From: Ceratodon purpureus
Lineage: Eukaryota; Streptophyta; Bryopsida; Pseudoditrichales; Ditrichaceae
Reading direction: 5' to 3'
Length of the DNA: 64,000 bases
Assembly: GCA_014871385.1 (NCBI GenBank)
Contig: CM026426.1
Location: forward strand, 106,498,030-106,562,029
How positions within the stretch are numbered: position 1 is the first letter of the stretch; each line of letters starts with the position of its first letter. Under the pieces are notes generated by a model. That model was not told the origin of the DNA. It searched no databases and was given only the letters and a program-made list of their open reading frames with translations. Shown here piece after piece: positions 26,926 to 61,283 of this stretch. The position numbers were made by a program, and so were the translations under genes.

Positions 26926-27951
26926 TATACTGTAGCACGACGTGGTGCCCGTATTCCTCTGGTAAGCACTTAATTAGCACTAAGTACCCTCCAAAGTTAA
27001 CCACTATGTGTTCGTTCCCACGAAGACCTATGGTTTCCTCCTTTTAGACCGTAACGGTAATCACCACCTGATTTCAACCATCTTCCGTCCTACTGCCGGT
27101 TATCCAAAACCGCCAGCTTTTGCCTCGTTCCTATTTTCCGGATTTTTAGACTAGTGGCCGGTTCCCACTGATCCGTCTATACTTTCAAGTGGCTGGATAC
27201 TCTACCGTCCCGAGACTTCAAGTGGCTGGATGCCCCACTGATCCTATCTAACACCCGGAGAGGATTGTAATAATCCTTCCGTGTGACTTGAGGCCGGTCC
27301 AAATAGCTACTCAATACCGATACCGGGACGAAATTCATACTACAACGACATCAATTAACGTTTGCATAGTATCCTAACTATATCATCCCCCTTCGGGACT
27401 GGTTCAAAGTAGGTAATCCGGCTTTTATCCTATCGACAGGATGCGACCAGTCCAATCCCAGATTCCGGTGTACACACGACCCTGCGTGTCCTTAAGACTA
27501 CCAGCCCCCGGTGCAATACATCTTCCTTCCCTTCAGGCTCCTTCCGGACATCAAAAACCGTCAACACTCGGCGCTTGACACCTTTCCAATTTCTCCGGAC
27601 GCTCTCCAAACTACCACTCTATTCAACACTCTTCTGGAACAATATAAGAGACAACAGTACCAACAAACCGTTACAGCAACGGGCCCGTAAGACAGCCGAT
27701 CGAGACAACAAATCCAAAATTATATTCTCAATTCCAACAACAAAATAGCTTACAAAAAGAAGGCCCCGGCCTTGGGAAAACGTCTAGCTTAAGTAGTAAC
27801 CCTAATGAGCCTATAGCAAACAAGTGGCTAACAAAGATCCACAAATTCTGGATCTTGGACCCTGGGAATCCCGGACCGGTGGCCGCCTTCTATTCCTAGT
27901 TACTGCCGCTATCTATCCGGACTGACAGCCGGGTGCAAGTGAGTCCCATCA

Positions 27952-29851
27952 TTAATCGCTGCCATTTTCTCCGGACCTTATCCTAACCCTACTCCTTCTC
28001 CTTCTCGAATCTTGGGTTGTGCCGATTCCGTCCAGCCGTCCCTTCTTCTGTGGCCCCTTCTTCACCCGTTTACGTGAGGAGCCGGCTCCTGGAGTATCTG
28101 GTATCGGTTGGTCGGCCACCTTCCAGACTTGTCCTGTCTGTACCGCGGGGGAGGGAGACCGTGTAGCCACCGGTGTTACAAAGAGGTCCGTCCGCCTCCG
28201 TTCCGGGGATGGAGTTCCTTGCACCGGAGCAAAGGTTGCTTCTGCCTGTGGTCCCAGGCTTCCGGTGAACGGCCTCCACTCCTTCCGGTATGACCAAATT
28301 GTGAAGACTGTCCAAGGTATCCGGAAGAGGGTCCGCTAACGGTTGTCCAAGCTCCGACTTAACTGATCGGATGGTCGACTGAACTGGAGAAGGCACGATT
28401 GGCACCTGTTTCGATCCTATGGTCGGAGCCGGTGGCTCAGGTGTCCTGTGCTCCTCTTCATCTACCGGTGGACCTGGTAGGTTTAACGGACTAGCCTTAT
28501 CATCGTGGAGACTGTCCACTAGGGCTCTCATCTTCAACCAGGTGTCTTCCATCTCCTGCGTTCGGTCGTGCATGACGTTTATAATTAACTTCCTGGCCGG
28601 ATCCGGTAGACGTGTCAAGAACTCCTTGTAGACGGCGCACTGGTTGGCCACATCCACCGGAAGGGCTAAGGTGGCCTTGACCCCCGCTATGCTCTGGATG
28701 GCCTTGGCTGCCCGGTCACGGGCCTCTTGAAAGTCCAACTGTGCATCATTCACATCCCGCTGGAGTTTGATGATCGTCCCCCGGTTCTCCTTCAATTGTT
28801 GGACATAGGTGGCTTGTAGGCGTGCCAGGTCCCGGTGGTTACGAAGAATGGTAATGCATTCTTCCAACCGGTCTGTGCCCGTAATGCCCATTACCTCCTT
28901 CGTCAACCGTCTTTCGAGCTGGGTGTTTTCCTGCAGGTACCGAACATATGCAGTCATCTGCTCAGACAGGTTGGCCAAATCTTGACGCGGATCTCCGGCA
29001 TGGTCCGGTGGCCCGGTAGGTTTGAGGACTTCCGTGCTCAGGTTACGTCTAGCCGGTGTGGGAGTCCGGGGGGAACCGGATGGCTGCCCCTTCTCCGGAC
29101 TGGGCCGTGGTTTCTTCGTCGAGGTGGGCAAAACTTCCACCACACTGTCATTGTCCTCAGAAAAGTCCGCCTCCAGTTCTGCGTACAGTTGGAGGCTCTT
29201 CAGCCACTCGTATTCCACAATCTCTTTGGGATTCAACAGGCCCTTGTGCCGGTAGAGGTGGACGAGGTAAGTCGGAAGGCAGGTGGACTGTTTCTTGGTC
29301 TTCCTCAGGTTGGCCACCTCACGGTCAATGATCGTCTTAATCATAATACCCCAGTCCACTTGGATTATTCCGTCCATGGCTATAATGAAGGTGGATGCCC
29401 ACTTGATGGTGACTTGTTTGGGCTTTTCCGGATGGGAAATTGGGTTCATAAACCCTACCACCATCCGGGCTCTCGGGTTCTTAATGTCGTCCAAATCCCA
29501 ACCTTCCTTCGGATCTCCGTACGTCTTAAGGTAATCGTAGACGAACTTCCGGGACTCCGGCGTCGAAACGTCGCCATCCGGTCGGAAGCCATACGTGTCC
29601 CTCCAAACCTGCGCCATCCACTGATCCGGCTCCCCACGGATGGTGTTTCGATTGCTAGGGTTTTTGACCAGAATCTCCTGCGCCGGAAGTGACTCCTTCC
29701 AATCTCATGCTTTGTCAAGGAGCAGCGGACAGCCCATAATCTCTAAGGCATCTCGGAGAAGCTCCCGATGCTCATCCATTGGTATCAACGGCATAACCCG
29801 TTGTACCTTCAGCAACGGTCCTTCCTCTGGTTCCTTCTCCTTCCTAGCCAT
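27952..29851 (-). pseudogene. Gag-like protein of LTR-like unit A
   Basis: Starts at ATG 29851 (MARKEKEPEEGP) and matches the protein of unit B along its length: the HPEKPKQVTIKWAST segment, the VDWGIMIKTIIDREVANLRK helix, CLPTYLVHLYRHKGLL, a basic Ser/Pro linker, a coiled coil, and ATLALPVDVANQCAVY. Two lesions: a TGA right after LLDKA (29705-29707, where unit B has TGG) and a frameshift near 28200 that moves the C-terminus to another frame ending at 27952. The middle helix block resembles the 'putative plant transposon protein' domain of plant retroelement ORFs, a family-level guess. Function would be structural (capsid-like) if it is a gag; that is inference. Confidence 0.7.
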
Positions 29852-30051
29852 CGTGCTAAGCGTCCGCACAGTCACTCCGGTAACTCCTGTACGCACAAGT
29901 CCTCACACAATCCCTCGACTAACGGAAACACTTCCCTCTCACCGTCTCTCTCCTATCGGCCTAACACGTAATGCGAACTACATCGAGGAGCACAAGGTCC
30001 TGACGCTCACAAAACGACAAAAGAAAGAAGGAGCACGGTTGGCCTTCTGCC

Positions 30052-30059
30052 TTTTATAC
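30052..30059 (-). promoter_or_regulatory. TATA box of LTR-like unit A
   Basis: TATAAAAG on the minus strand, about 380 bp inside the unit and about 200 bp before the gag-like ATG; the same position and sequence as in unit B. Confidence 0.6.
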
Positions 30060-30441
30060 CCTGTTCCAGCTTCAACCGTTCGTATCTCCTCATGATGGAC
30101 GGTCGTAGCCCTTCATCATTGGACGGTCGCGACCGGCGGCGCTTTAACTGCCGCCCCCGTGTCTCCTGTGTGAACTACACCCTCCAGCTGTAGCTTTAAA
30201 TCTGCTCGTGTCAGGATTCCGTGCCGCAGACTGTTCTCGATTTAACCAATTCCGTTCGACCGGATCAGCCCCGGTAGCCCGTCCGGTTCAATATTGATTC
30301 AACTAACCGTCTTAATCGGTTGTTACCTAGATCTAGTTAATATTTCCGTATTTCTACAACGAAATTTCTATTTTTTATCATTTTTTTCACCGGATTTAGT
30401 ATTCTGTTGTGCCAACCGTGGAAATCACTTTCCACATATAC

Positions 30442-35950: not shown

Positions 35951-35961
35951 CTTTGTACCCT

Positions 35962-35979
35962 GTGGAAAGTGATTTCCAC
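35962..35979. promoter_or_regulatory. Terminal hairpin of LTR-like unit B
   Basis: GTGGAAAGTGATTTCCAC: 7-bp perfect arms with a GTGA loop, one base inside the unit's 5' end. The same 18 bases are perfectly conserved in unit A (30418-30435, other strand) although the neighbouring sequence has diverged, which suggests function in integration or packaging. Confidence 0.6.
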
Positions 35980-36341
35980 GGTTGACACACCGGAATACTA
36001 ATTCCGGTAGGAAAATGATAAAAATTTAAAAAAAATTTATGTTAAGAATACGGAAGTACTAAGTTGATAAGTGAAACAACCGGTTAAGACGGTTGGCCGA
36101 ATAAGTAAGAGAACCGGAAGGTCAGCCGGGTGCGATCCGGTCGTCTGCAGACGAGGAGTGGGAGCACAGACCGTATGACAGAACCCTGACACTGCAGACT
36201 TAAGGATAACCACCGAAAGGTACGACGCACACGGGGAGAATGGCTGCCACCATTAAAACGCCGCCGGTCACGACCGTCCAATGATGAAAGGCTACGACCG
36301 TCCGTCATGATGAGCTACGAACGGGTGGGCGTGAGGGCAGG

Positions 36342-36349
36342 TATAAAAG
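36342..36349 (+). promoter_or_regulatory. TATA box of LTR-like unit B
   Basis: TATAAAAG about 380 bp from the unit's 5' end and 200 bp before the gag-like ATG. Conserved with unit A. Confidence 0.65.
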
Positions 36350-36550
36350 GAGGAAGAACAGCCGTGCTCCTCCTTTCTTTTTGTCATTTTGTGGCACGCT
36401 GGGTCCTTGTGTCTCACGACGGAGGGCGCAGTTAGGGTTGGACGGTAGGAGAGAGACGGTGAGACGGAAGTGTTTCCGTTAGGCGAGAGATTGTGGTGAG
36501 GATCGTGCGTGCAGGTGTTTCCGGAGTGACGGAGAGGAGGACTTAGCAGA

Positions 36551-38416
36551 ATGGGTAGAAAGGGGAAGGAACCGGCGGAGGAAGGACAGTTGTTCAGGGT
36601 ACAACGGGTAATGCCGTTGATGCCGGCAGACGAGAGGGAGAGGGAGCTCCTCCGGACCGCCTTAGAATCTATGGGTTGTGAGGTCCTACTGGACAAGGCA
36701 TGGGGTTGGAAGCATGCCCTTCCGGCCCAGGAGATCCTCGTCAAGAATCCTGAGAATCGAGGAACCATCCGGGGAGAGCCGGATAAGTGGACGGCACAAC
36801 TCTGGAGGGAGACGTATGGGTTCAAGAACACTGGAGAGGTCTCGACACCGGAGACCCGGGACTTTGTATGGGGGTATATCGAGGGGTCCGGAGACCCGAG
36901 AGAAGGATGGGAGCTGAAGGATATCACGAATCCGGAGGCCCGAAGAGTCGTAGGGTTTATGAGCCCTATTTTCCATCCGGAAAAGCCCAAACGGATAACC
37001 ATCAAGTGGGCGTCCGTTTTCATTGGGGCCATGATCGGTGAATTCACGGTAGACTGGGGCGTCATGATGAAGACGATAGTCGATCGGCAGGTAGCCAATC
37101 TCCGGAAGACCAAGAAACAGACCACCTGCCTTCCGTCTTTCCTCATTCACCTCTACCGTCACAAGGGGCTGTTGAGTCCTAAGGAGATCCGGGAGTACGA
37201 TGAGATCACAAGCTATCAGCAGTTCGCTGAACCGGAAGAAGTGTCCGATCAAGACGATGATGATGATGTTATCGAGGTCTCCCCCACGCCAGCTAAGAGA
37301 CCCCGTCCCAGCCCGGAGAAGGGACAGCCATCCGGATCACCTCGGACTCCCACACCGGCCAAGCGAACCTTGAACACGGAAGTCCAAAAACCCACCGGAC
37401 CACCGGAGCACACCGGGGACCCGTACCAGGACTTAGTTAACCTATCTGAGCAGGCGTCGACGTATGCTCGGTTCCTACAGTCGACTAGGCAGGCGGAGGG
37501 CCGGTTGGCTAGGGAGGTAATGTCCATTACGGAAACGGACCGGTTGGAGGAATGCCTGAGTATTCTTCGCAAGCACCGGGACTTGGCCAGTCTCCAGAAC
37601 AAGCACATGGACCGGCTAGAGAAGTAATGGGAGAGGAATCAGAAGCTCGAGCAGGAGGTGCTTGATGCCCGGAAGGATAACAGTGACGCCCGTGACCGGG
37701 CAGTCGAGGCCATCCGGTCGGTCGCCGAGATCAAGGCCACTTTAGCTCTTCCGGTAGATGTGGCCAATCAGTGCGCCGTTTACCAAGCCTTCTTGACCCG
37801 TCAACCGGATCCGACTGTCAAGAAGATTATAAAGTTCATGCACAACCGGACGCAGGTGATGAAGGACACTTGGACGCAGATGAAGAACCTGGTGGAGATC
37901 CTCGGTTCCGCAGAGGCCGGTCCGTCATCAGAGCCACCGGCAGATCGGGAGGAGCCCAGACCACCGTCCCCACCCAGGGAATCGGCGCCGGTGCCACCTC
38001 CAGCCTCTCCGATACGGTCGGCCATCCGGTCAGCCCAACAGGAGGTAGGACACCCGCTGGAGGATCCTATCCCGGATACCTTGAGCAGTCTGCACACTCT
38101 ACCCAATTTGGCTGGAGTCGAGACTGTTAACCCCGGAAACATCCCTTTGGGACCGGACCAAAGACCACCACCGGAAGGCTTTATGCCGATACAGGGATCT
38201 CCGGAACATCTCCAGGTGGATCTCAGCGCAGTTCCGGTGGCGGCACGCTCTCCATCCCCGGCGGTTCAAGCAGAACGATCCCGGAAGTCCAGCGAACCGT
38301 CAGCATCTGAGGCTCCGGAAGAAGGCCCCTCGTTGAAGAAACTGAAGAGGGCACAGAAGAAGGAACGGATGGATGGAACCCGGCACAGTCCCCGGTTCGA
38401 TAAGCACAAGGAGTAG
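36551..38416 (+). pseudogene. Gag-like protein of LTR-like unit B, 621 codons with one stop
   Basis: ATG 36551 (MGRKGKEPAEEGQ) to TAG 38414. The single lesion is TAA at 37625-37627 within an otherwise open frame. Residues ~1-210 form a globular part with EKPKRITIKWASVF, VDWGVMMKTIVDRQVANLRK and CLPSFLIHLYRHKGLL, related by eye to plant retroelement 'transposon protein' domains. Residues ~233-290 are an acidic run plus a basic Ser/Pro/Arg linker. Residues ~290-430 form a coiled coil, then ATLALPVDVANQCAVY. The tail is proline-rich and ends in a Lys/Arg cluster (LKKLKRAQKKERMD). No zinc knuckle, protease or polymerase follows. The distant relic at 46985-48070 shares the globular part. A role as capsid/nucleic-acid binding protein is inference. 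Confidence 0.75.
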
Positions 38417-39479
38417 AAGTTAGGATAGGGACCGGATAAAATGGCAGCGACTAACGATGGGGCTCCAGTGCACCCGGCTGCCAATCCGGATAGATAACGG
38501 CAGTAACTAGGAATAGAAGGCGGCCACCGGTCCGGAATTCCCGGATCCAAGATCCGGAATTTCTGGATCTCGGTGGGCCACTTGGTCGCTTTAGGAATCG
38601 ATAGGTTTTAGTATTTAAGTTGGACGTTTTTCCAAGGCCGGGGCCTTGTTTTTGTACGCCGTTTTGTTGTTGCAATTGAGAATATACTTTTGGATTTGTT
38701 GTGTCAACCGGCTGCTGACGGGTCCGTTGCCGTATGGTTTGTTAGTACTATTGTCTTCAGTAGTATTCCGGAGGAGTGTTGAACAGTAGGATGGTCTGGA
38801 GAGCGCCCGGAGAGACTGGGGAGGTGTCAAGCGTCGAGTGTTGACGGTTTCCAGTCCCGGAAGGAGTCCGTAGGGAAGGAGAGACGTATTGCAGCAGGGT
38901 TGGTAGTCTCAAGGACACGGAGAGCCGTGTGTACACCGAGATCCGGAAACGGACCGGTCGCCTCCTGTAGATGGAATAAAAGCCGGATATCCTACTGCGA
39001 ACCAATTCAGAAGGGAGATAGTATAGTAGAATACCGTGCAACCGTAAGGTGATGTCATTGTAGTATGATTTCCGTATCCATAACCGGCACTGAGTAGTTA
39101 TCCGGACCGGTCCCTAGCCATACGGAAGGATTATTACTCCACTTCTCGGGTGGTAGATAGGAACAGTGGGGTGTCCAGCCACTTTAAGTCACGGGACGGT
39201 GGAAAATCCCGCCACTTGAAAGGATAGACGGATCAGTGGGAACCGGCCACTAGTCTAAAAAGCCGGAAAATAGGAACGAGGCAAAAACTACCGGATTCGG
39301 CCAACCGGTTGTAAGACGGAATACGGTTGGACACCGGTGGTGATCTCCGTTAAAATCTAAAAGGAAGAAAACTATAGGTCTTCGTGGGAACGAACACGGA
39401 GTGGTTCACTTTGGAGGGTATTTAGTGTCAAATAAGTGCCTTCCGGAGGAATACGGATACCACGTCGTGCTACATACCC

Positions 39480-45014: not shown

Positions 45015-46602
45015 ATGTTGTTCTGTCGTGGCTCAGTGAAAAGTCCCGCTTATGTAGACCTTGATGCCCCAGCAAAGGCGGTGGCAGCAACTTCCACAAC
45101 CCCATCTCAGATAGGCTCAAACCCATCATTGAGCTCATCGGGGAAGAAGAGCCGGAAGCCAGCGAGTGAACGAGATGTTGACTATCGGCATATCGCGTAC
45201 TCAAACTTCATAAGGGAGTGTGCTTTGGAGTATTACCAAAATTGTTCATGCGAGATGTTGACACGAGTTTTTTTTCCCAGTGGATCAAAGGGAGTTACAA
45301 AATTACAAAATGATTTGGCCCTACATTTTAATTACGCACTAGCGAGTTCTCAGAGTTATAATAATTGTAATGCTACCTACTTCCATTATGACAAGTAGCT
45401 GGACCAGCAAGTTACGACAAACACTACAAACGTGGTGCATTTGTTTGAGTGTGTCCACAAGAAGCCAAAGGACGGCTATTCGAGGGAGCAAGTAGTCGAA
45501 TTGGAAAACCTAAAGTTTGTCCAAAAGCAGTGTAGCAAATTCTCAAATAATAAGACGAGGGTTAGGCCATGGCATGAAGTCGGACTGAAGAGTGCTATGG
45601 AAAAATACTTGTGGGGAGCAGTCCTTTCAGTTCCCAAAGCGGTTAAGGTGGTTCCACTATCTAGCTCTACACAAGCCGGATTCGGTATGGTACGGAAACT
45701 ACGTATTGTTGGGATGCCGACCATACCTAAGACTTGTATCTTTGCAAAGAAGATGTTAAAGTTGGAAGACAACACCAAGAAGCGACACGAGGCTTTGATT
45801 GAAGCCATGGTTTATAGGATTGAGCATCCCGACATTATTAGATTCTTTGCTGTCAATAATCGGACCATGGAAGCATACACACTTTTGTGGAATGGGTATT
45901 GTAGTAAGAAATATCTTCAGAAGGAGAATACTAAAGTCTCGGAGGCTATTGAAAACCATAATATCTTGAAGCCTCCTATCAATCAACCTATTGCAATACT
46001 TCAGCGTGTTCATGCCTTCCACACCCATAGGGCCAAGCTAGTTTGGGCATTGATCTGTATTATGGACGGGGTCCATAAGGGGTATTTGATGCATAATGAC
46101 ATCTCGACGAGAAATGTCTTGCTTCACTTCCTAGAGGATAAAATGGACCAAGTTTACATTGGAGTATGCGATTGGGGCCTTGCAAGTCGAGTGTGTGAGA
46201 CAACACCTTCAAACTTTGGTTTTCCAAGTAAACAAGAGCTTATGGCTACCTATGACCAACGTGGTTGGTTTGCAGCTCCGGAGCTATGGTACACTTATGG
46301 TAAGCAAATTTGGAGACCTCACTGGAAATTCAGAAGGGAAATATTTATATTTGCAAGCCGGTGACGCATACTTGGTTGGAATGATAGCAAATAGGATTTG
46401 AGATAACGAGGACGACTCAAATCTTTTCAAAGACGAAGTGGGAAAGTCTAGATTTGCAGTGGTATTGAAGGCGCTTGCAAATCCCAATCCCAAGTCCCGC
46501 TCCACCTTGCTCAAGGCCGTCATCGTCTTGACATCTCCTCCCTATAATTTCCAAATTCCAATGTGTTGTTATCGCTACGAGATTTTAGAAGTACGCAAGT
46601 AG
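45015..46602 (+). pseudogene. Protein kinase-like ORF in a transposon setting
   Basis: Frame from ATG 45015 (MLFCRGSVKSPAY). The first ~125 residues are a low-complexity head and a Cys-containing helical region. After TAG 45396 the same frame carries a full kinase N-lobe and catalytic loop. The glycine-rich loop (QAGFGMVRKL) is followed by a candidate ATP-binding lysine in IFAKKML and an alpha-C helix EALIEAMVYRIEHPDI. The catalytic loop is HNDISTRN (Asp at 46098-46100), the metal loop DWG (46170-46178) replaces DFG, and the P+1 motif is AAPELWY. A frameshift between 46300 and 46350 moves the C-lobe (DAYLVGMIANRI; a helix to 46602) into another frame, with TGA at 46399. Protein kinases phosphorylate Ser/Thr/Tyr. 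The key residues survive, so the ancestor was probably catalytic. A promoter-like GC array precedes it, as for the other genes here. Confidence 0.65.
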
Positions 46603-48070: not shown

Positions 48071-49660
48071 TTGCAGTTTGCTACATGAAATTTGTCCTAA
48101 CTGATCTGGATTGGCCTAACTACTAAATCGGATCATTCTTGGCCTAAATTTACCTACTTAACCAAAAAAATTAAAAGGTGCTATAAAACTAAGTTCCGGT
48201 CTAGTGATATCAGGTTGCTTCTAACTTTTTAGGTTTCCACATCTGATTCTTAAAAGAAGTGAAAATTTATTAGTGAAAAAAGTGGTAAATGTGATAAATT
48301 TAATATTTGAAATTATGAGACATTTCAATAAGGGCCTAAAGCCGTGGAAAACTAGAATACTACCTAGGATCTAATCATTTAGAGACATTCTAGATCCGCA
48401 AATGGACTCTCACTATATTGGAGTTGGGATAATAAATAATTTTAATCAAATGAGCATGTAGTAAACCTTAAAATAAAATTTACTGTATCCATAAGATGAG
48501 GCACATTGTATTAGACATATGATACAATTTACTGTTTTAGTGAATGATTTTTACTTTTTTAATAAACTGAGACTTAGTATATTAGTAATTAAAAATTTAC
48601 CGTCTCAAGTCAAAGACAAACAGTTTTAGTATAATGAGAAAGATACATACTCTAAAAGGGCCAAGCAAATTTGGAATAGTGAACTACATGTGGTGAGTCA
48701 AATATCTTGAAGTGGCCCTTTTAGTCTCACTACATCATGATTATAACAAATCCTCTATGCATATATTTCTCTGAAGAAACAGAAAACTCTAAGAGTGAAG
48801 GTACTTTAGTAAACCACCTTGTAAAACTCGCTACACTTCGTTGAAGCTCAAACGTGCTTCATAAATGAACGTCTCTGATTCTGAGTCCAAACCATATAGT
48901 ATAGTAAAAAAAAAAGGTACAAATGCTTATAGTTGGCCCATTGACGCCGTTTTCCAATAGCTTTAGTAGCAATCTCTTTGAAGTTAGGATAGCTGTATTA
49001 GGGCAGCTGCAAAATTGTCACGTAGTATTGTTGTACCTTTAGGGAAAGTTAGCATGTGAGCGGAGAGCAGAGAATGGAAAGCAGAGATTTGACATTTAGC
49101 CAAATTTTTGAAAGTGAAGTAAACCCTATAACCGTGGAAAAATACTATAAAAAGGCACAATTTTGTTACTTTTTTTAGTAAAGGAGTATAATTCCGTGGA
49201 ATTCAGGGTTATCACTGGTAAAAGTTCTTACATTTGTTTTCTGAGGTACAAATTACGGCTGATGTCATGATGACGTCATGCATACAAATCCTTTAGATTT
49301 GGTCCCTTACAGGATCTAGATATGAGTATATAGATAATTGTAGATCACAACAGTAAATATTGAATAGATAATATAGATAATTATAGGAAAAACAAAAAGA
49401 TAAAAAGATAAAATTAAAGGACTGAAATCTTCGTGGAATATTTTAAAGCTGGTGTACAATAAGGAGCTGCTGAAACCAAGATGTATACCATGTTAGACTG
49501 CTTGTCTTCTCAAAGATTTCTCGGTCTTTAGATAAGACCATTGCTAGCTTAAGTGTCAACCAACGATCTATATAAACCTTAATAGACGTCCTTGACGTTG
49601 TATTAGCTCAATAATTTGTTTAGAACTTAACGTTGTACTTCTTAGCAGTTGTTTGAAAGT
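48071..49660. other. AT-rich noncoding DNA
   Basis: About 1.6 kb without any supported gene or clear repeat. Confidence 0.6.
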
Positions 49661-50173
49661 ATGGGCGATTCCTTTAAGGTTGTTGCTTGTGAAACAATTT
49701 TACAGGATTTGCTTAAGAGGATGGCGGTTGGACCTAACCCCTGGGATCATATAGGTAGTAGTGCAACAGAGGGTTGGACTCCTCCGACGGTAATCACGTT
49801 TGAAGATGTCGAGAACGCTCGTGCTGTGTCGAAGCTGTGGAAGCGTGAGGTTGACAGCAGTCCTGAATATGCATGCCTTCGGCTAGCGAGGTGGGATTAC
49901 TTTATGTTCAGGGGTCGCCATTGGAGTACTAAGGACAAATACGAAGCTAATTGATTCAACATCAACTAGAGTGTTTTTAAGAGTTTTTGGACACTTGCAA
50001 ATATAATTAACAACGAGTGGTTAGAGACAGCGTCCCTTGGAGAACTTAGATGCCTTGAGTTAGATCAGTTGAGGACATTGCTATGGGCAAATGGGAATCA
50101 GGTCTTGGATGTGCCGAAAGGAGAGAAATTTTCTCCAAGTGATGGTATCTGGATCTCTCCCAAAAATAGGTAA
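49661..50173 (+). pseudogene. Small unknown gene relic, ~170 codons
   Basis: From ATG 49661 (MGDSFKVVACETIL) the frame is coding-like (Trp-rich: NPWDHIG, WTPPTVITFEDVENARAV, KLWKREVD). TGA at 49952 and TAG at 49967 interrupt it, and it continues in the same frame (FKSFWTLANIINNEWLE, then GKFSPSDG-like GEKFSPSDGIWISPKN) to TAA 50171. No family recognised. It converges on the methyltransferase-like gene and may be a further ORF of the same element. Confidence 0.35.
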
Positions 50174-50524
50174 CATGGCTATGGCAATTTGAAATGTTGT
50201 TGACTGATAAAGAAAGTAGATAGAGTTTTATGAATAGTTTGAACGTTTCAGATGTTCATGTTAGTGTTGTCTAGTGTTCTGGATATAATTAGCTCACAAA
50301 AACACATTCATAATTAAAGTACTTTTCCCTTTAAACACATGAGAATTGAGAGCCAAAAAGTCTTGCAGTTGTAGACCTTTACATACACAAAAAGAAAATG
50401 GAAATGAGAATCATGAATACTTTAAGTGGTATGCAATAGAGTAGACGAAGGATTATGTAATCCACTCCAATGAAATCAAATCAAATCAGATGAAAACAAT
50501 GATAGACCGAAGCCTCCTTCAGAC
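50174..50524. other. Convergent 3' ends
   Basis: AT-rich; no gene seen. Confidence 0.4.
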
Positions 50525-53500
50525 TCACGACATGCTACAATCGCTACTTCCACTCTCAGAGCTCAAGGACTCTGAATCTCCTTCTAAAGCCTCTATATCG
50601 ACAAATACAAGGGCCTTGGGATCAAAACTAGTTGGCTGACTAGGAACATATCTAAGGGCACGAGATTGAAGCGTTTGTGCTAAGTCCTGTGCATGTTTGG
50701 AAGTATAAAAGGCTGATTCGGGATGGAATGAAGACGCCACGATGGAGTGGACACGGCTCTTGGCCCACGTGGCGGTGTTGCCGCAACTACTCTGCAATAG
50801 GAAACTGATAGTGGTTAGATCGAGTAGGTAGAGTTGCAAACAAAAGCAATGCTAAGATAAATTGCACAAAAGATAGAAAATCTAGAGTAAGACTTAAACC
50901 TCTTAGAGGGTCTTGGTCTCTTTGGAGGTGCTTCTTCAACTGCTGCCGGTCTAGGATGTTTAGAAGGGCCCATGGCGGATGGTGTAGCCATATACGGTTT
51001 GAGAATGGCGTCGAATATGGCTTCGTCATCCTCAAAAGCTGTACTGTGACGACCAATAGCCTGGCAAGCCTTGATGGAGGCCCCTAAAGCTCAGAGAGTA
51101 ACAAAGATGTGAGAAACTGTGGAATAAACGAGAGGAATAATTAAGCAGACACATATAATGAATGGTTACCTGTTTCTGCATTCTAGTCGAGGACTATGTC
51201 ACCGGGCTTCGAAAGCTCTCTAATTATGCTCTGCATCAGCTCATGGGTTTTCTCCCTTGGCCCTCTTCACGAATGTCTCCATTTATTTGTTGTGACTCCA
51301 CATCGGTCCAGTTGAAAATGGCATCACTCTCGGTAATGTTGTGAACCCCATGTATCATCTGGGATTTCTTTGTTTGGAAGGAGAAATTAGATGGCGCGTG
51401 GCCACCACAAACGTAGACGCGAATCCACAACCAAATAGTTTGCAGTCAAGCAAAACTAGTGAGTGCTAATAAGTAGAAGGGTTATTACTTAGCAAAGAGA
51501 AAGAAATGTTACGATGAAATTACCAAGTTGTCGGGGTTCGTAGGAGAAGTCAGGCCGAGTACATTGACACCCCACATGTCCTTGTAAAGCACGAACTCTC
51601 TACCCTCAGCTTCTTCCTCGATATCCTTAGCCAGCTTTTGATCATTGTTGTGGATGATGCAGACGACACCATCTTTCCGCAAGTATTGATCTGCAAAATG
51701 AAAGATGTCGTACACATAATCCTTCTCACGAGAGTTCCAAGGCGGAATACTCGTGGGGGGACCGGAAACAGAAGGGTCGGGAAGATTCTCAGGGATGTCG
51801 GCAATTATCAAGTTGACTCCCAGATGGTACTCTTATTTGCATTGGTCCGGAACTCCATTTTGGCGGCCTGCTCCAAACTTGAGGAAACAAGAAAGCAGAA
51901 TTAGATACTATAGAATGAATAGAAGTGTATGTATCCAAGAAATGTCTAAAGAACAAAACATACCTTGCGAATGAAGTCTTGAACTTTGATCCACTCTAGG
52001 TTGCCGTCCTTGTCTGAGAGCTTCTTATTTCGCCGCAACATCGAATTCACAGATGAGTTGAAGACGGAAACATGTGTGGAGATCGAAGTTCTAGCGGAAG
52101 AAGTGGTTTGTGGATAATGTTTGGCCTTCCTCTGCTCAATGAGACTTCTGGTGATCTCAGAAGCACTAATGGATGAAGGCGCATTTGCAGTGGTCGAAGA
52201 TGGCTTTGGAACGTCTATAGTTGGAGAAGCGTTGGGTGTCTCCTTCCCTGGTGCAGAAGACTCTACACTAGTATCCTGTGAGGCCTGGGACTTCGACCCC
52301 GGAGTTCGCAGTCGCCGCCATCTCCCTCTCTTTGGTGGAGGTGCAAATGATTGATTCTGCAGGCCTTCGGCCTCATCTGAACCGTCTCCAGAATCCTTGA
52401 CAGCCGACAATCCTCCATCAAGCTCAGATTTCAGCTCCGCTTCGGACTCAATCACGAAACCACGAATGCAAGCGAGGTACCAACAACCAGCTTCTAGGTG
52501 CTGCAATTTGAACCTCTTCAACTCCTGAGGAGAATAGATACACTGGTCAGAGCCTCTCTGAATCCACGCAGCGAAGTACTTTGCAAGCTTGTCAAGGTGA
52601 AGTGCGCCTTTTTTAAGTAGCTCTCTCTTGAAGTACCTAATGAAGTTCAGTTGTCATAGATCAGAATCGTACTGGTTAAGTTAAATTAAAGGGAGAAGTA
52701 AATGGAATACAGAGAGGTATATCATAATAATTATAAGAATATGTCACACGCTTGAGAGCATCTGCAGCCCCCCGGAAATTTGGAAAAATCGGACTTCTAA
52801 TCGAAAGCCTTTTCCACGCGGGTACCAAGGAATAAGGGGAATGCGTTCTCCCAAAGGAGAATATGCCAACTCTCCACATATGCGTCGGGCTGTAGCACTC
52901 CCGGGAAAGACTTCCACTTGATGACCACGTTCTCGGTCTTACAGATGTCATCAAAGTCCTGGGTAATTGCTTCCTCGAGCTGCAACACAAAAGTAAAGTT
53001 GTTAAGGTAAAGAAAGATATGCGACAAAGAAAGAGTACAGATAGTGTTCACTATAATGTTTGAAGGTACTATACCCCAGCCCAAAATGCTGCCTTGTTCA
53101 CCCAATGGTCGAGGTCGGCCTCCTCAAATTCTGGGGGCAGAAATCTGTAAGAAAGTCGTGAACTAGGTGAAGAGTTCCACCACCTCAGCTAGCGCGCTTT
53201 GAATTTGGCATCCACAGCTGTAGGAACAATCTTTTGAAGCTTGTCCACTGTCATCTCCGGTTTGGCAAAATCACTGTAATGCCGATTGATCTGGAAATGA
53301 AACAGTACATATAGAATTAGATGAATTTTTCCGAATTGCAATACTTGTGGATCAACTAAAGTAGGAATGTTAACCCACTTACCTCGGCAAGGAAGTCATC
53401 ACCGTTCTTGGGATTGGCAATGGCCAATTACTTGGTGAAGTCCTTCTTCTTAATGGTGTTGACCATGTTGTTTGAAGCCGCAGTCATGGCATCCCAAACA

Positions 53501-56500
53501 CCTGCCGCAATTTGTTCTAGAATGGGTGTTTTCTCCTTATAGATCCTGACAGGTTCGTCAGAAGCAGCCACAATTTCTCGTTGTAAAACAGAGTTATTAA
53601 TTTGTGAGTTTACAGTCTAGCGCAAATCAATTGACGAATGGAAGCGTGATAGAGGGAGGAAAAAGTTCTTACACGATAAAGAAACGCGATGAAGACTTTG
53701 GTTGGCAAGGTAAAGTACAATTTGTGATTCAAAGATATTTGATACTCTTCTGGTGTGGACAGATCCTTGAATTCCTCTAATTTCATAACACCAAAGGAGC
53801 GAATACAAAAAAGTTTTGCTAGAAGAATACTCTTGTCGTGATCATTTTTTGTAGACATGTACGAATAGACGTCAATCAATAAAATGCATAAAAAACAAGT
53901 TTAAGCAACTGTGGTCAAATTATTACCACTTCAATGCAGTGCATGGCATGAAGAAGGTTTCCCACTTGACCGCGTGGGTCAAGAACAATGCAATGCACAA
54001 AGATGTGCCACGCTGGATCTTCGCTGTGATGGTTGTTGATATGTCTCAACCATGCGGCGAGGCGATGGTTACCTTCCCTAACGTAAAACATCTTCCCTGA
54101 GAACTTCTTCCAATCTGATTCAGCCAATAGCTCATCTTTGAAAGCATCGTTTGCTTTTAGCCAACAAGGGCTCAACTAAGCCTTGATCTCTTCAGTGACA
54201 TTGGATGTCTTCTCTTTGTGGTTGTACATGGAAATCTACATAACGCGGTCTCCATCTCTATAGCTTGGGGAGAATTTGGAGGCTGTTGATGACGCCGATG
54301 GAGTCGACCTTGTGCTGTTTCCGCTGATAAATTCACTCTCTACTGCATTCGTCAAATCTGTAGGACAAGATGGCGCTGGCATAAGATCCTGCGTTTGAGT
54401 TACCTGTCAAAAGTCATACATTTTCAGACTTGATTTCAAGACAAGGATCGTAAGAAAACATACAACTATAAAGATGAATATAACAATTTCTTCTCGTAGT
54501 GAAACATCTTTTTTGAAAACCCAATCATTAGCAGCAGTAATAAGTAGTACAGAGGTCACTATCTACGTGGTGCACGCCTATAATACTCCCTAGCCTGTCT
54601 ACAGTTCCAATGACGGCGCCTCTTCTAAAATCGCCTAGTGTGTTGGATAGGGCATAGTAGTATCGCGGGGAGGGCGAAGACAACATGAGCTCGCCTCCTC
54701 ACTCTAATAGCCGAGGAAGGAGAAGGTGGGGACATTGGCGGGGTACCAAGTATTGGAGAAGTAGGCATGTGGCCCGGAGATGTAGGCTCGTAGACAAGAG
54801 ACGTAGGCATGTACTGAGGAGAGTGGACCTTGAGAGGTCCACTATCTAAATCTACAGGGTTTCCTAAAGCACACCTACAATAGGGCTGATCAATTGAATC
54901 CGAGAGGTCTAGAAAATTGATCACTGTGATCGGGGAACTGATGGACAAGGGGGCATCTGAGAATACCTAGAAACAGAGGAACAAAGACAATGTGAGTTTA
55001 CCATAAAATTTAACAAAAGAACATTAAAAAGAAGTAAGTTTGATAAACAATGCTATGCTCAATACAGAAAACAAAATAATGTGAAATACCTCAGTTTTTG
55101 CCGATGTTGGCCCATCAGCTTCACTTGCACTGAATTGCTCTGTAAACTCCTACAAAACAGACAATGAACATCTCGTGAGAGTTGAACAGGAATGACTAAG
55201 CAACTAGTAGAAAGGAACTATTAAAAACATCACAAACAATGGGGGCCTCCTCGGATGGGGTTGCGGCCGCCTCCACTGTCTCCGTAACTGCTGCGCCCAC
55301 AATGACACCCACCACTAGAGTGGGTGTCGGATCCAAAAGCCTCTTGGCTGCCCCCCCTTCCCTCGGCGCCATGGCTCGTGCACCCTCCTCTACTGCTCAT
55401 GCCGCGGCCTCGTGAGCAGCTCATGCCTCCATGGGAGGCGCACCCAGCTCCCTGTCTCCGACAGTGGGGGCCTGCGAATGCTCGCTGCTGCTCGCGGCCA
55501 TGCCCTTCACGCGCATCGAATCCCCCACTACTTCCACCTGTAGTGGCACCTCAATGGTATGTGTCGACACCAAGTGCTTGATGGCGGTCGCCGTGCTGCT
55601 CGCGGTCTTGAACTCTACCGTCGCGGTCCACATAGAATCCTCTTCATTTACCACTTCAATCCCTTCAAAACCATCTACTGCAACTACCTCAAGCAATTCA
55701 CTCCTCTAGGCCGCGGCTGCTTCCCACTTATCCCCTTACCTCTACTTCCCCTTCCCTCTCAGATCGACAAACTCAACATCGAATGCATTCAAATACCTCA
55801 TAACCCAAACCCCACCTACGCAAATCCTTACCTCCTCTGTTGCTGGGGCGTGGTCTGATCCGCCTCCGTCGCTCTCCATCTCGGAGTCGCTGCGGTCCTC
55901 TCCACACCCCTGCATCCTCTTGACAGTCGCCTCTTCCTCCGTAGCCGCAAGTGCTTGCTTGAATGCGGCTTCTGTAGAAGCCCTCCCTCTCCCACCTCGT
56001 CCTTTACCTCTCCCTCGACCCCCTACTTCGGCCCCTCTACCTCGCCCTTGGGCCGATCCTTCATCCATTTCATCATCTCCGGGGCCTACCGTAATACCAA
56101 GCGAATCAACATCCTCCCCACTCGTCTCAGTAGGACTCCCAGGGTCCCCTCTCCCCGCCCCCCTTGCATCGCCCCCCAATGCATTCGCCTCCCCACCTTT
56201 GCCCGCCTCCATAATTTCTCGCCTTGCTCTACAAGCCACGGCTCTCAATGTCTCTGTTTCGGAATCCTCGCCTGTATCCACTATTGCTCTCTTTGCACCT
56301 TTGACCTCTTGCTCAACCCTAAACCAATCTTCTCTCTTTACAAAGAATAAAGAGGTTGACAAGTATAAGTTCTCGAAGGCAATTCACTCTAACATGAACT
56401 ACGGCTATTGCGCCATTACAATCTTAACCGGTAAAAAATAGATCACGCAGCAAAGGCACTGTTCTAAATTTATAATGTTATTCCACAAGAAACAAACATA

Positions 56501-56978
56501 CATGAACAAACTTAGAACAGTAAGGGAGGAAACTTACTACCTCCGAGTTAGAATGGCCTCCTGATTGTGAATCCGTCTCTCTTGTTGACGAGTCCTTAAA
56601 ACCAAAAGAAGGTTGTGGTGTCTCCAGAGTCTAATTTGAATTGAATCCTCGTGCTTCCGTCATCTCTTTTTGTTTCTCAACGCTACTTATTAACTCCTGC
56701 TCCTCAGGCTCTACTGAAGTGTCCTCTAAAATCTCATCTTTTATCTCCACTATGGACTCTAGTATGAGTTTACGAATGCTACAAAATTTTAAAGTCAAAG
56801 GCAGACCTGCTCCTTGAACCTTCAGTGGTGCACTGAGAAGGTTACGTTTTGTATCTACCTTCCTACTTGCTGCTCTCCTCTTCTTCGCTCTCATGTCCGT
56901 AAAATCAGTGGAATATCGTTTCCTTCTTCGATTTTGTGTGACATAAGTGGAGGGAGTAGACCCTCCACTCTCCTTCAT
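50525..56978 (-). pseudogene. Multi-exon gene with ParB-like motif and permuted DNA N4/N6-methyltransferase-like domain
   Basis: Exons read leftward. 56978-~56535 encodes a basic head. About 56410-55260 is Gly/Arg/Glu-rich (RGRGKGRGGRGRAST) with several stops. 55151-55089 is a small clean exon, and 54976-54625 is Pro/Ser-rich with MPTS repeats. 54410-~53930 carries FYVREGNHRLAAW, a ParB/sulfiredoxin-like G-N-H-R signature. Further exons follow (53870-53680, 53590-53390, 53291-53074, 52980-~52750, 52636-51963). 51867-51523 holds LIIADIPENLPDP (motif IV, DPPY-like) then FADQYLRKDGVVCIIHN. After an intron, 51440-51172 ends with a KP..ELMQSII helix and SKPGDIVLD (motif I start), and 51080-50895 continues NAETGASIKACQAIGRHS. 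Motif IV before motif I is the permuted order of N4-cytosine/N6-adenine methylases (PF01555-like). Most splice sites are clean. Stops (TAG, TAA) and one base lost near 51250 break it; motif I Gly reads Glu. Confidence 0.65.
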
Positions 56979-57008
56979 GTGTCTAAGTAACCTAATGACC
57001 CTCCTCAC

Positions 57009-57569
57009 TATAAAGGACTCAATAGATCTTCAACTCTGCTTATATAGTCCTAAATCAACCCGTTCCTCAACTCCTCATGAATAGATAATAGTACCCACTT
57101 ACAAGAATCATCCACCGGCTATACTTAGTGAAACTAAAGATAATTTCATTTTGAATTAAAGTTGATGTAAAAATAAATTTAATTAAAATCAATTAGTACA
57201 TCAATAAAATGAGGACCATAATAGACATGAAGACAATGAATACCCTATCACAGAGGGCCTGGCCAAAGTTCTAGAATGAAAGGCGGCTAAAGCTAATCCT
57301 AGACATTCTCTCCTGAACATAAAATCAAACCACGATCTAAAGTGCTATTGACTTGGGTTAATATAACTACACTTAAATTCTCATTACGGCGCAAGAGATA
57401 ACTAACTCTATTACTTAGACTCTAACAAACTTCCGTTACTCCTGATTCAGATTCATTTACTATGATGCAGCCGGAACTGTATATAATCATTGTACTCGAC
57501 CTCTTTAGTCTCTCATTCTTATACATCGTCACTCGAATAGTGTCATATCCCCGCACTCTACGTTTCACT
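57009..57569. promoter_or_regulatory. Divergent intergenic region, probable bidirectional promoter
   Basis: About 560-590 bp separate the starts of the methyltransferase-like gene (minus) and the MULE transposase gene (plus). AT-rich, no gene. A tatataatc word lies near 57480, about 90 bp before the plus-strand ATG. Confidence 0.4.
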
Positions 57570-60500
57570 ATGGCGTACGCTGCTCCTCAAGAAGTCCAAG
57601 GCACTGTCGTCCTCTACGCTCACGGCTTTGGAATTCCCCTCTCTTTTCATACCACTGCCAATGGTATGGCTAGCGTGTCCTCCCTGCACCTTAGTATGAG
57701 ATTCAGTTTCAAAGAGGATACAATCAGGGTCAAGAGGAGATTTTTGACGAGATAACTACTGAGGTCACTCACACTCTAGGTCAAGTGTCCGAGAGGGCTG
57801 AAGATGGAATTTTATACTGGCACTTGTATCCTGGTACATATAGAGTTTATGGACTTACAGAATCTCAGATGCAGACGTCTACAAAGATTCTTACTCCCCG
57901 TCAATCCTCTACTTGCACTGTTCGGACTCCGCTTCCTCGTGACGTGAAGGTCAAGGTAAAGTCTAGCCTGGATACTCTTCTTCAAACTCCGATCATCTTG
58001 CTCTCTTCAGATGAGGAAACTAGCCTTGCTATGTCGTCCCCTCCTATCACGCTGGACGTTGGAGAGTCTAGGCCCGCAGTCCCCCTCCCAGTAAAGTCTC
58101 CCACTCCCTCTCAAATTTCAAAAGACGGTACTATTAGTATTGTCGATTTACTTCGCAAACTTGCCGAGATACCTAGTATGAAGAACATTCTGAAAAAAAT
58201 GGATTATTCAAAAATCCGACACGAGAGAGTAGGGTACTTGCTTGCTGTTTTCGATGGACCTGTTCTCTTTGAGTTGCCCTTTGCCGCACTTGGAGCATCA
58301 CGGTCGCAAGCAAAGTCCATGCAAGGAATGGACAAACGATACGACGGCCATGTTTGGACCAAGACAATCACCACCAACATCACCAAAGACTTGGGGCTGT
58401 CTTTTTGGTACTCTAGCTGCGTCGGATGGCTGCGCTGCAACAACAAAGATTGCCTATTTCCGGAACGCCGGCCCCGGATTCGTGATGTGAACGAGACCGA
58501 GTTTGACGGCTGCTCACTCCAAGCAATCAGTGTCGACCTGCCACCATGAAAAGATTCCACGGTTGTATGCAAGGTATACAAAGAACCCCCTGTGTGCATT
58601 GCTAGATCTGGGGCGCAAATATATTATGTGTCTGGTACAGTCAACCAAACTAGGGCATGTATCCAAATAGGAACTCACGATCACCTTGTTAAGGTTGGCA
58701 ACTACAGAAATACAAAGGTTGAGATCAATAGTTTGATCTCAGAACAGGTCGAAAACACACCTCGAGCAACGAAGACCTCTGTGGTGCTAAACGCGAGCAA
58801 GGTTCTAATCGGGAAATACTTGCTACAGCAAGGGGATGCACCTCCCAAGAAACTCACTATGGAGGAGCTTGTTCCAGTCCTTGACAGGTGCAAGGACATG
58901 GCATCTCCAAACATTCGCAACAAGGTAATGTCATTCCGTAAATTGAGGAATTTTGGAGTTATGGATGCCATAACAAAGCTGCGTGGAATCAGTGTCTGGG
59001 CATATGTCCAAGCGAACAAGTTCCCTGGTCAAGGGGCCGATCTGGACAAGGTGCTTCTGTTCAAGATGTCGGAAGTGGTGTCGACCTCGTGTCGAGGATG
59101 CAGTGCGGCGGCAATCTCCAGAACGCCTGGGTGATGTTTGACCACGTCAAGCGGGTACGCGATTGGACCACGTTGGCATGCCACGTGTACGACTCCACGT
59201 ACTGCCGGGTCATGACGATTGCTACTTGTGACATGATGACTGAGGACTGCGACGCCCAGATCCTGTTTTGGCGAAACCTAAATGCTGTCATGGAGAGGAA
59301 TGGCGTTGCAGCGCCAAACTTCAAGGGCTTCATGGCGGACAGCGCACAGGCCAACTGGAATGCAGTTTGGATCGTCTACGGCACAGGAAAAAGGAAGACC
59401 GTATGGAGGATCGGGAGAGGACCTGCCTATTTCATTGGACGCAGTCAATGGTCAACAACACCCAAGAGGTACATCTGTGAAGAACTGTGGGAGCACCACA
59501 AGAAAATGTGCCACCAATACCGGAAGCCAAAACCATGTAGGAGGCGGATACTCTCTACCTCGCAATTAAGGGTTGGAAGGTTTCTACTGGAGCTGTCTCA
59601 GAGAAGGCCCTAGCTAGATTGGAGCTCTGGCTTGCTTTTTGGCACTTCAGATATTGCCTGTGGGGGGTTTTCATGGCTTGGGGTACGTTTTTTTTTTCCT
59701 AACCCATTCATTCCTATTTCTACTTCGCTGTTAAACCGACCATTCTAAATGCCTTACCACATCTAACCACTACTGCATTTGAATGTGCAGAACTTACTGA
59801 AGAAGAACTTGCAGAAATGCCTACGTGTAACCTTGCTGAAACCGTTCACAGCAAGTGGCTTCAAGCCTCTGGTAACAAGTGCGGCGACCTCCACGTAGCT
59901 ATAGTGGATGACTATGTTCGGGCATTCCTACAAGTTGTCAACTTCTACCAGTTTCTGAAAGGGAACGTTGGAGGGACGGGTCCATCCAAGAAAGAACTCA
60001 AGTTGAGAGTGGCAGAGTGCAGGGCAAAGTTGACAGGGAGACCGCATGTGCTTGAAGACCCCATGTTAGAGATGCCCGGAGCGGACGAGTTCTGTACACG
60101 TCTGCCACGGATGCCTGGAGAGGAAGTTTTCGGATTCATCAAGCAGAAGCCCGACCTACCCCTTCGAGCTGAGGAAGAATCTCACTGTCCGGACAAGGTA
60201 AACTACTTGTATCCAAAAGCACGTGAACGTAATGTTAGGGCTCGCACCTCCCAGATGCCCATCATTGTTGAGGATGACACCGAAGATGACACGCTGGTCG
60301 ACGAAGGTCAGTCTCCTACAGAGGTTGCCGTGACAATCCATGAAACCCCAAGAAACGAGATTGGAATCCGTCATGTGAATGCAGTTTAGGAGACCAAGGT
60401 TGACGTCAAGGAGTGGCACATCGCAAGATTGTTGAGGACTTCTGCAAAGTGCTGCTGGGCCCAGAGAGTTGTCACTAAGAAGTAATGTACGGAGAAAATT

Positions 60501-61283
60501 GTGAGGAACGTGAACGCTACTGCTACACCAACCTACACTAGAGTTTGGACCAACGTCGGCCGGAACACTTCAGAGAGGACGGAATTCTTCTTTTGTTCTA
60601 ACGACATTGAAAGGTGCGTGAAGGGTTCAAGGCGCTGGTGGGTTGCTAAGTACTCTGCAACCTAGGAGATGCCTCCAATTCTAGACGTTTGGCCTGTAAA
60701 GCTTGGGACAAACCTGAATATCACAGAAATTCGTGCACTAGAGGCGGTTGGCTTCCAGCTCCCGCAGAAGAAGCCGGTCTCCCCACGACGCCTCTTCGCC
60801 TCCGCTCAGCCACCTGCAAATCTAAGTTCTTTGCCAGTTCTTGCAGATGCTGACCGCTACCCACGCAAGAGAGACGGGAAGATGGTGAAGCGCATTGCCA
60901 CTCGCCCTAATCCGCCGCAGCGACTCTCCATGGGCTCCTCCGACACCTTCAGAGCTCGCCTCTGTTCTGTCACCATGATACCTCATCCAGGCCATGGTTG
61001 CATCATAGGGTTGGATTCCGGCATTCCACCTAATGTCACGCACTACCTGATCACCATCAGCTCCAATCCGCGTTGCAGTTGCCCAGCATTTCGGAAGACC
61101 ATGACGAAGTTTCGTGGGCGGGTCCAATTCTTGTATTGTAAGCACGTCTACTTCATCCTATTCAAGGTTTGCAACCACAATCCCGACGGCGACCTTTTCA
61201 TCCACGTGCCTACCTACAGCTTTAACGAGGTCAAGATACTTCTTGAAAGCGGAATCCTGACATACCCTTTAGCAAGAAACTAG
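57570..61283 (+). pseudogene. MULE-type transposase gene with SWIM zinc finger
   Basis: Starts at ATG 57570 (MAYAAPQEVQG). A one-base shift near 57705 leads to EIFDEITTEVTHTLGQ and on to a zinc-binding N-terminal module (GWLRCNNKDC, 58428-58460, with a later Cys). TGA at 58547 interrupts. Next come NIRNKVMSFRKLRNFG and, after a shift near 59090, the MULE catalytic region: MFDHVKRVRDWTTLACHVYD, VMTIATCDMMTEDCDAQ, FKGFMADSAQANW. A 108-nt intron (59683-59790; GTACGT...GTGCAG, CTAAC branch) precedes MPTCNLAETVHSKWLQ. TAG, TAA and TAG interrupt 60390-60660. The end has a SWIM finger, CSC (61074-61082) and CKH (61137-61145). MULE transposases move elements by cut-and-paste; SWIM fingers bind DNA or protein. 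Nearly every break is one transition from a sense codon. Confidence 0.85.
59683..59790 (+). other. Intron of the MULE transposase gene
   Basis: Donor G|GTACGT, poly-T stretch, branch site ctaac at 59763, acceptor gtgcag. Splicing joins TGG G|AA CTT ACT in frame. Confidence 0.75.

Follow-up and report, generated by a model that had tools for sequence, protein, structure and literature searches.

Mutator-like elements (MULEs) are reported to have target duplications of 8-11 bp, terminal inverted repeats (TIRs), SWIM-type transposases and extra open reading frames (ORFs) that are sometimes antisense (PMC6446971). In the VANDAL group of MULEs, the extra element protein VANC is described as inducing loss of methylation and as binding short motifs that often form tandem repeats in introns or other non-coding parts (PMC5735166). 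In the acquired bdelloid methyltransferase N4CMT, a change from SPPY to APPA, which alters both Ser and Tyr, is reported to abolish activity (PMC8885841), and METTL14, which has EPPL and lacks the stacking aromatic residue, is described as inactive (PMC5023411). Here we describe gene 2 of a decayed MULE-like transposon in a 64,000-nucleotide stretch of the Ceratodon purpureus genome, referred to below as the window (C6:106,498,030-106,562,029; C6 has 110,524,308 bases and the genome 362,488,568). Gene 2 encodes a permuted methyltransferase domain in which catalytic motif IV reads DIPE across the transposon family. We tentatively propose that its product serves the transposon as a targeting factor, derived from a methyltransferase but non-catalytic, which possibly counteracts silencing as VANC does.

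Results

The minus-strand spliced gene at 56,978-50,525 is real and forms the second gene of a high-copy, MULE-like TIR transposon whose two genes are divergently transcribed. It starts at about 56,978 (MKESGGSTPSTYVTQ) and reaches its final stop at 50,525. The encoded order is a basic N terminus, heptads resembling the carboxy-terminal domain (CTD) of RNA polymerase II, a GNHR domain, a domain of unknown fold, a permuted methyltransferase and an acidic tail. An earlier sequence-only reading had proposed a transposon-borne, spliced and probably dead gene for a fusion of ParB and methyltransferase domains at this position. All the peptides that it quoted lie on the minus strand of the window at or near the places it gave. 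Landmarks are EGNHR from 54,076 down, DIPE at 51,799-51,788 and LRKDGVVCIIHN, then GDIVLD, a TAG stop and NAETG at about 51,191-51,170, and ASIKACQAIGRHS below 51,083. The segments of the element and of the gene are the following.

49,042-61,283, no strand assigned: decayed MULE-like copy, right end at 49,042, aligned to copies X222, X225 and X230
49,042-49,065, no strand assigned: right terminal inverted repeat; the TIR core with 2 mismatches has 1 match in the window, 0.01 expected
56,541-56,978, minus: first coding exon (MKESGGSTPSTYVTQ...), of basic composition, its 3' boundary placed approximately; the window copy has an in-frame stop near 56,631
54,625-54,966, minus: heptad exon, RNA polymerase II CTD-like, with YMPTSLV YEPTSPG HMPTSPI at 54,813-54,751
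53,930-54,403, minus: GNHR exon, ParB-like by motif only, without about 36 residues in this copy; relatives P0005-P0016 and P0021
52,720-53,858, minus: exons E2-E5, conserved domain of unknown fold with no match in Pfam, recovered in 23 of 24 other copies, some incomplete
51,964-52,635, minus: exon E6, linker with a basic stretch; subfamily identity breakpoint near its 3' end
51,524-51,877, minus: exon E7, N-terminal half of the methyltransferase, motif IV DIPE at 51,799-51,788
51,170-51,439, minus: exon E8, motif I, D-stop-NAETG in this copy against DWNAGTG in intact copies; frameshift
50,900-51,083, minus: exon E9, rest of motif I and the GRHxxAFE region, inside the PF01555 match, then a basic tail
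50,525-50,791, minus: exon E10, encoding the acidic, serine-rich C terminus and the stop; the window copy has a broken frame here
57,695-61,283, plus: gene 1, putative SWIM-type transposase, decayed, divergent from gene 2; homologous ORFs in X222

The segments were read as exons because the same order recurs in other genomic copies, with some segments absent from individual copies, and because exon-sized homologues are found among public sequences, four of exon 7 and 17 of either the GNHR exon or exon 8. They are not chance features, since exon 7 DNA recurs at 89-92% identity across the genome. The first coding exon has similar ORFs in X225 and X230 and is split over two frames in X222, and the reading frame of exon E8 was set with the homologues P0017-P0020. 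The window copy is broken by stops within its reading frame, by a frameshift in exon 8 and by the loss of about 36 residues from the GNHR exon relative to P0005-P0014, and so is dead, as had been proposed. A full-length query gave no relatives among 7,354 candidates, and scans of viral and prokaryote genome contigs gave no relatives of E7 or the GNHR exon.

The family was sampled by fetching 24 copies of about 10 kb, of which 20 came from the 39 exon 7 places other than the window and four were chosen by the GNHR exon; with the window these make 25 rows. Exon 7 DNA gave 734 first-look candidates in the genome, of which 40 were scored, and the 39 scored places besides the window all share 89-92% identity along 313 nt or more. 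A search with the protein of the GNHR exon produced 1,862 first-look candidates, the best 150 of which were scored at 78-84% identity, eight of them with a stop. Groups with identical scores lie on several chromosomes (for example, seven open 201-aa frames on C1, C5, C7, C8, C9 and C13) and point to recent amplification. Eight copies (L223, L227, L228, L234, L236, L243, L245 and L246) have zero stops across eleven segments, at 95% coverage or more per segment apart from the L223 heptad exon at 88%; these are genomic DNA, with splicing predicted. The methyltransferase exons are present as well in all four copies that were picked through the GNHR exon.

Both flanks were fetched for three of the 24 copies (X222, X225 and X230). 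These fully bounded elements are 14.35, 17.69 and 15.63 kb long, with homology ending at both sides, and all three have target duplications (11, 10 and 10 bp). The element ends are inverted repeats (GRGGRAAGYTYGTAYGTGAGCGGAGA...), which in X222 form a 67-bp pair of 84% identity. On the strand opposite gene 2, the left half of X222 has ORFs, one of 665 aa, that end in a CxC...CxH SWIM-like motif by eye. The target duplications, TIRs, SWIM-like motif and extra antisense ORF are why we call the element MULE-like, and a transposase-like gene lying in one element with TIRs and target duplications bears out the earlier proposal that the gene is transposon-borne. The terminal repeats are not visible from the window alone; the boundaries came from the genomic copies. 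The window copy aligns to X222, X225 and X230 in blocks over 49,058-61,278, at about 67-78% identity in blocks longer than 200 bp. Its left end was not found, and the left 1.7 kb of the intact copies has no match in the window. Plus-strand ORFs of the window (57.7-61.3 kb) score 18.5 bits against Pfam SWIM, below the cut-off of 19.6, and the three transposase ORFs of L239 have neither a transposase nor a SWIM match in Pfam.

By sequence comparison, the C-terminal part of gene 2 is a permuted PF01555 beta-class methyltransferase, in line with the sequence-only reading: PF01555 is matched above its cut-off and motif IV (E7) precedes motif I (E8/E9). Exons 7-9 of the window, joined with exon 8 partly misframed, score 29 bits (cut-off 26.7), and the same sequence matches a PHROG methyltransferase at 1.5e-7. 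A two-contig chimera of P0001 exon 7 and P0020 exons 8-9 scores 41.6 bits (1.7e-10) and the exons of L230 score 33.2 bits; joined L230 E5-E9 match only PF01555 in Pfam. Among sequences of solved structure, CcrM (E 0.0017) and DpnA (0.0055) come closest. Of 456 matched phage records 40 were listed, and among the listed matches covering at least 80% the best (4e-6) is H13, an enzyme encoded on a contig and carrying ADIPYN; the motif I half is matched by SfV orf48 at 2e-7. A scan for IADIPYN gave at least 120 stretches, and motif I, by our own pattern, lies downstream in 95 of 120 ORFs. A profile of 17 copies matches the phage DIPY family with probability 97.5 and score 60.7 over 210 columns, with DIPE aligned over DIPY, and the phage ParB-methylases with probability 80.8 and score 35.0. 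Between these two profiles, the only ones compared, the gene 2 methyltransferase appears closer to the phage DIPY enzymes than to the phage ParB-methylases, although the DIPY set was selected by motif and may favor the DIPY match.

Motif IV could be read in 24 of the 25 rows, as DIPE in 20 and as DITE, DISE, NIPE and HIPE in one each, so that the fourth residue is Glu in all 24 and the Asp is kept in 22. The row left unread, L219, shows DIPEN in another reading, and all four public exon 7 homologues have DIPEN. Across the genome, 476 places fit IIADIP-x-NL, where x is any NRN codon, and among the 100 of these that were listed there are 95 Glu, four Lys and one Gln, and no aromatic residue. A TWY codon at that position occurs at one genome place only, as ADIP[..]NL, without family exons around it. 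Among viral IADIPEN stretches, none of 53 ORFs has motif I downstream by our pattern. The family thus departs from the standard catalytic motif IV, [DSN]PP[YFW]. Motif I reads DWNAGTG in 14 of 20 rows read, keeping the GxG of FxGxG and having Asn in place of Phe. The damage to motif I in the window recurs elsewhere, the stop in L219 and the Gly-to-Glu change in L228.

These counts divide what the sequence-only reading had taken together. It held that both signature motifs are altered in this copy, which is true of motif I, with its stop and Glu; DIPE is typical of the whole family and is therefore not decay of the window copy. Where it looked to other copies for intact motifs, none of the rows read has DPPY, and of F-x-G-T-G the GTG is kept in DWNAGTG and the Phe is replaced by Asn. 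Its suggestion that relatives may be active stands insofar as stop-free copies exist, but because motif IV is DIPE across the family, the intact relatives are probably not ordinary methylases. Since APPA kills the bdelloid enzyme and METTL14 with EPPL is inactive, the DIPE form is likely to be catalytically inactive.

The ParB assignment fared less well. ParB-like is a fair working label for the GNHR exon and no more, taken from the GNHRL motif alone, and a ParB domain is unproven: none of 14 GNHR-exon sequences matches ParB in Pfam. Pfam gave no ParB for the window exon or for the consensus, phage records gave no ParB match, NCBIfam and PDB sequences gave no match, and an hhalign profile comparison with the ParB domain of phage ParB-methylases was negative. 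Viral contigs yielded 94 ORFs read from 119 stretches with [DE]GNHRLAA, mostly ParB-like by eye, and this set does match the same phage ParB domain (97.8). A 96% match of the GNHR exon to the same set was discarded as circular, because the set was selected by the very motif; with the 8-residue motif masked, the match fell to 1%. A second multicopy family with FDGNHRTRAW (L231:8902-9738) occupies 93 genome places and is 35% identical to the GNHR exon; by eye, none of these places is near the listed PF01555 places. The GNHR motif is therefore not limited to the MULE-like element.

Heptads resembling Y-x-P-T-S-P-x occur two to five times per copy in 24 of the 25 rows; none was seen in L220, where the exon was not recovered. 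YMPTSPV and YEPTSPG heptads resemble the RNA polymerase II CTD repeat. In the stretch that separates the N-terminal exons from the heptad exon, X225 has a 16-fold array of a 224-bp unit and X230 a 16.5-fold array of a 117-bp unit, and a related array is present in L245.

Ratios of nonsynonymous to synonymous divergence (dN/dS) were calculated by the Nei-Gojobori method for 91 pairs drawn from 14 copies. These copies were selected for being largely intact, and four of them carry one or two stops. The ratios are 0.09 for the GNHR exon, 0.08 for E2-E5 and 0.18 for the heptad exon, with synonymous divergence in the 5' exons often near saturation, and 0.26 for E6, 0.31 for E8, 0.26 for E9, 0.44 for E10 and 0.71 for E7. 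These ratios clearly indicate selection on the 5' part of the gene 2 protein and moderate selection on E8-E9; for E7 they demonstrate none. The identity of L226 to L227 is 0.56-0.75 up to a point near the end of E6, beyond which it increases to 0.89-0.97 and remains high, introns included, as far as about 9 kb; trees of the 5' and 3' parts differ, and the 5' subfamilies stand at dS >1 (L226, L227 and L243). The 3' part, from the end of E6 towards the right TIR, appears to have been exchanged between subfamilies in a mosaic evolution. Choosing 20 copies by E7 favors similar E7 sequences; E7 is likewise close to the others in the four copies picked through the GNHR exon.

Three further observations concern other loci. 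Places over the PF01555 cut-off include C8:9595672-9596436 (nearly full length, with a stop), C12:14530065 and C1:5958254; none of the 32 such places lies inside the fetched copies, and they possibly represent further methyltransferase-bearing families. Within the window, 26,931-30,436 and 35,961-39,474 form a 3.5-kb inverted pair of 74% identity with gag-like ORFs by eye, a separate repeat family. A protein-kinase-like ORF (by eye) lies at 45,399-46,364 in a repeat-rich stretch.

Discussion

Our preferred model, held with less than even confidence, is that gene 2 encodes a non-catalytic targeting factor. The methyltransferase domain, keeping a GxG like that of the S-adenosylmethionine (SAM) loop and having lost the motif IV aromatic residue, would not methylate and would instead be a DNA- or chromatin-binding module, as METTL14 is for RNA. 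The protein would bind element DNA, with the tandem arrays in its own intron as candidate target, and would then block or reverse host silencing much as VANC does for VANDAL elements; alternatively, its heptads may recruit transcription. A non-catalytic targeting or anti-silencing role is favored because the element layout is similar to that of a VANC-bearing VANDAL element. It is possible, though we consider it rather doubtful, that the combination of a catalytically altered phage-type methyltransferase, a ParB-like domain and a CTD mimic acts as a sequence-targeted epigenetic factor that keeps the element expressed, as a second, independent anti-silencing system. Several observations weigh against the targeting model. 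SAM binding is not assured, because motif I lacks the F of FxGxG. The exon with the catalytic motif, E7, has its dN/dS of 0.71 at a median dS of 0.026, and 0.32-0.91 when older copies are compared with four references; since the median dS is so low, the 0.71 mostly reflects recent drift. With no clear purifying selection on E7, the constancy of DIPE partly reflects recent homogenization of the 3' end. Finally, some copies lack the arrays: no array of that size is present in the X222 intron or in the window copy.

Next in rank, and somewhat unlikely in our estimation, is that gene 2 is a transposition accessory factor concerned with integration or complex assembly, like maize mudrB, and not with anti-silencing. 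Extra ORFs, sometimes antisense, are described in MULEs (PMC6446971), and the 3' part towards the TIR is homogenized across subfamilies whose 5' parts have dS >1; nothing specific counts against it. An active amino-methyltransferase that uses the unusual DIPE as its motif IV and places N4-methylcytosine (4mC) or N6-methyladenine (6mA) on element DNA seems less probable still. The retained motif IV Asp and the GxG of intact copies would suit an enzyme, the phage DIPY kin tolerate Ile at the second position (the 95 of 120 IADIPYN ORFs with motif I), and bdelloid N4CMT is a reported precedent for an acquired eukaryotic enzyme (PMC8885841); these points are opposed by Glu at the aromatic position in every copy read and at 95 of the 100 listed genome places, with no aromatic residue among them, and by the lack of a downstream motif I in all 53 viral IADIPEN ORFs.

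The protein might also act in trans on host methylation, either as a SAM-binding decoy or as a partner of an active methyltransferase, encoded by the host or by a repeat, on the METTL3-METTL14 pattern. The genome does hold other PF01555 sequences, 32 over the cut-off among 150 scored of 773 candidates, but no second methyltransferase was seen in the element, and we give this explanation little credence. Least credible is that gene 2 is passive cargo, taken up by the transposon from host or bacterial DNA. MULEs are known to pick up host gene fragments (PMC6446971), the window copy is decayed and E7 is without clear constraint; such cargo is disfavored by dN/dS of 0.08-0.31 in six of eight segments (0.44 and 0.71 in the other two), by eight copies that are stop-free in all eleven segments and by the presence of methyltransferase exons in all four copies chosen by the GNHR exon.

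Searches of the open-licence literature, judged by title and the start of the abstract, listed no description of this element. The phage DIPY beta-class enzymes, for example Gordonia phage GMA4 gp54, have in common with gene 2 the motif order, the IIADIPxN strand, an IFN..D segment, Pxx(Q/E)K and an AGSG/AGTG motif I. The phage enzymes have DIPY and mostly DPCAGSG or DPVAGSG, whereas gene 2 has DIPE, DWNAGTG, introns, N-terminal domains and a transposon context. Phage fusions of ParB and methyltransferase resemble gene 2 in placing an R-motif domain ahead of a permuted methyltransferase; among 80 ParB loci fetched, 42 have ORFs >330 aa. Gene 2 differs from these fusions in about 500 extra residues between the domains; its methyltransferase matches them more weakly than it does the DIPY enzymes, and its GNHR exon does not match their ParB domain.

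Among eukaryotic proteins, bdelloid N4CMT is described, like gene 2, as a permuted PF01555 protein with bacterial or phage kin and introns, but it has SPPY, is active, carries a chromodomain and is an allelic pair in Adineta vaga (PMC8885841), in contrast to the many transposon copies of gene 2 with DIPE. METTL14, like gene 2, has a methyltransferase fold without the catalytic aromatic residue, and its described role is non-catalytic (PMC5023411); it is the partner of an RNA methyltransferase, whereas gene 2 encodes an element protein. A PF01555 match in a eukaryotic genome is no evidence of 4mC or 6mA. If the targeting model is true, transposons can turn DNA-modification enzymes of bacterial or phage origin into non-catalytic targeting proteins, and the moss element would offer a testable second case of transposon counter-silencing besides VANC. 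The term "methyl" is absent from the main text of the MULE survey (PMC6446971). With MULEs, including VANDAL elements and their VANC proteins as so far described, the present element shares TIRs, a target duplication, a putative SWIM-type transposase, an extra antisense gene and, in some copies, intronic tandem repeats; unlike them, its extra protein holds a methyltransferase domain.

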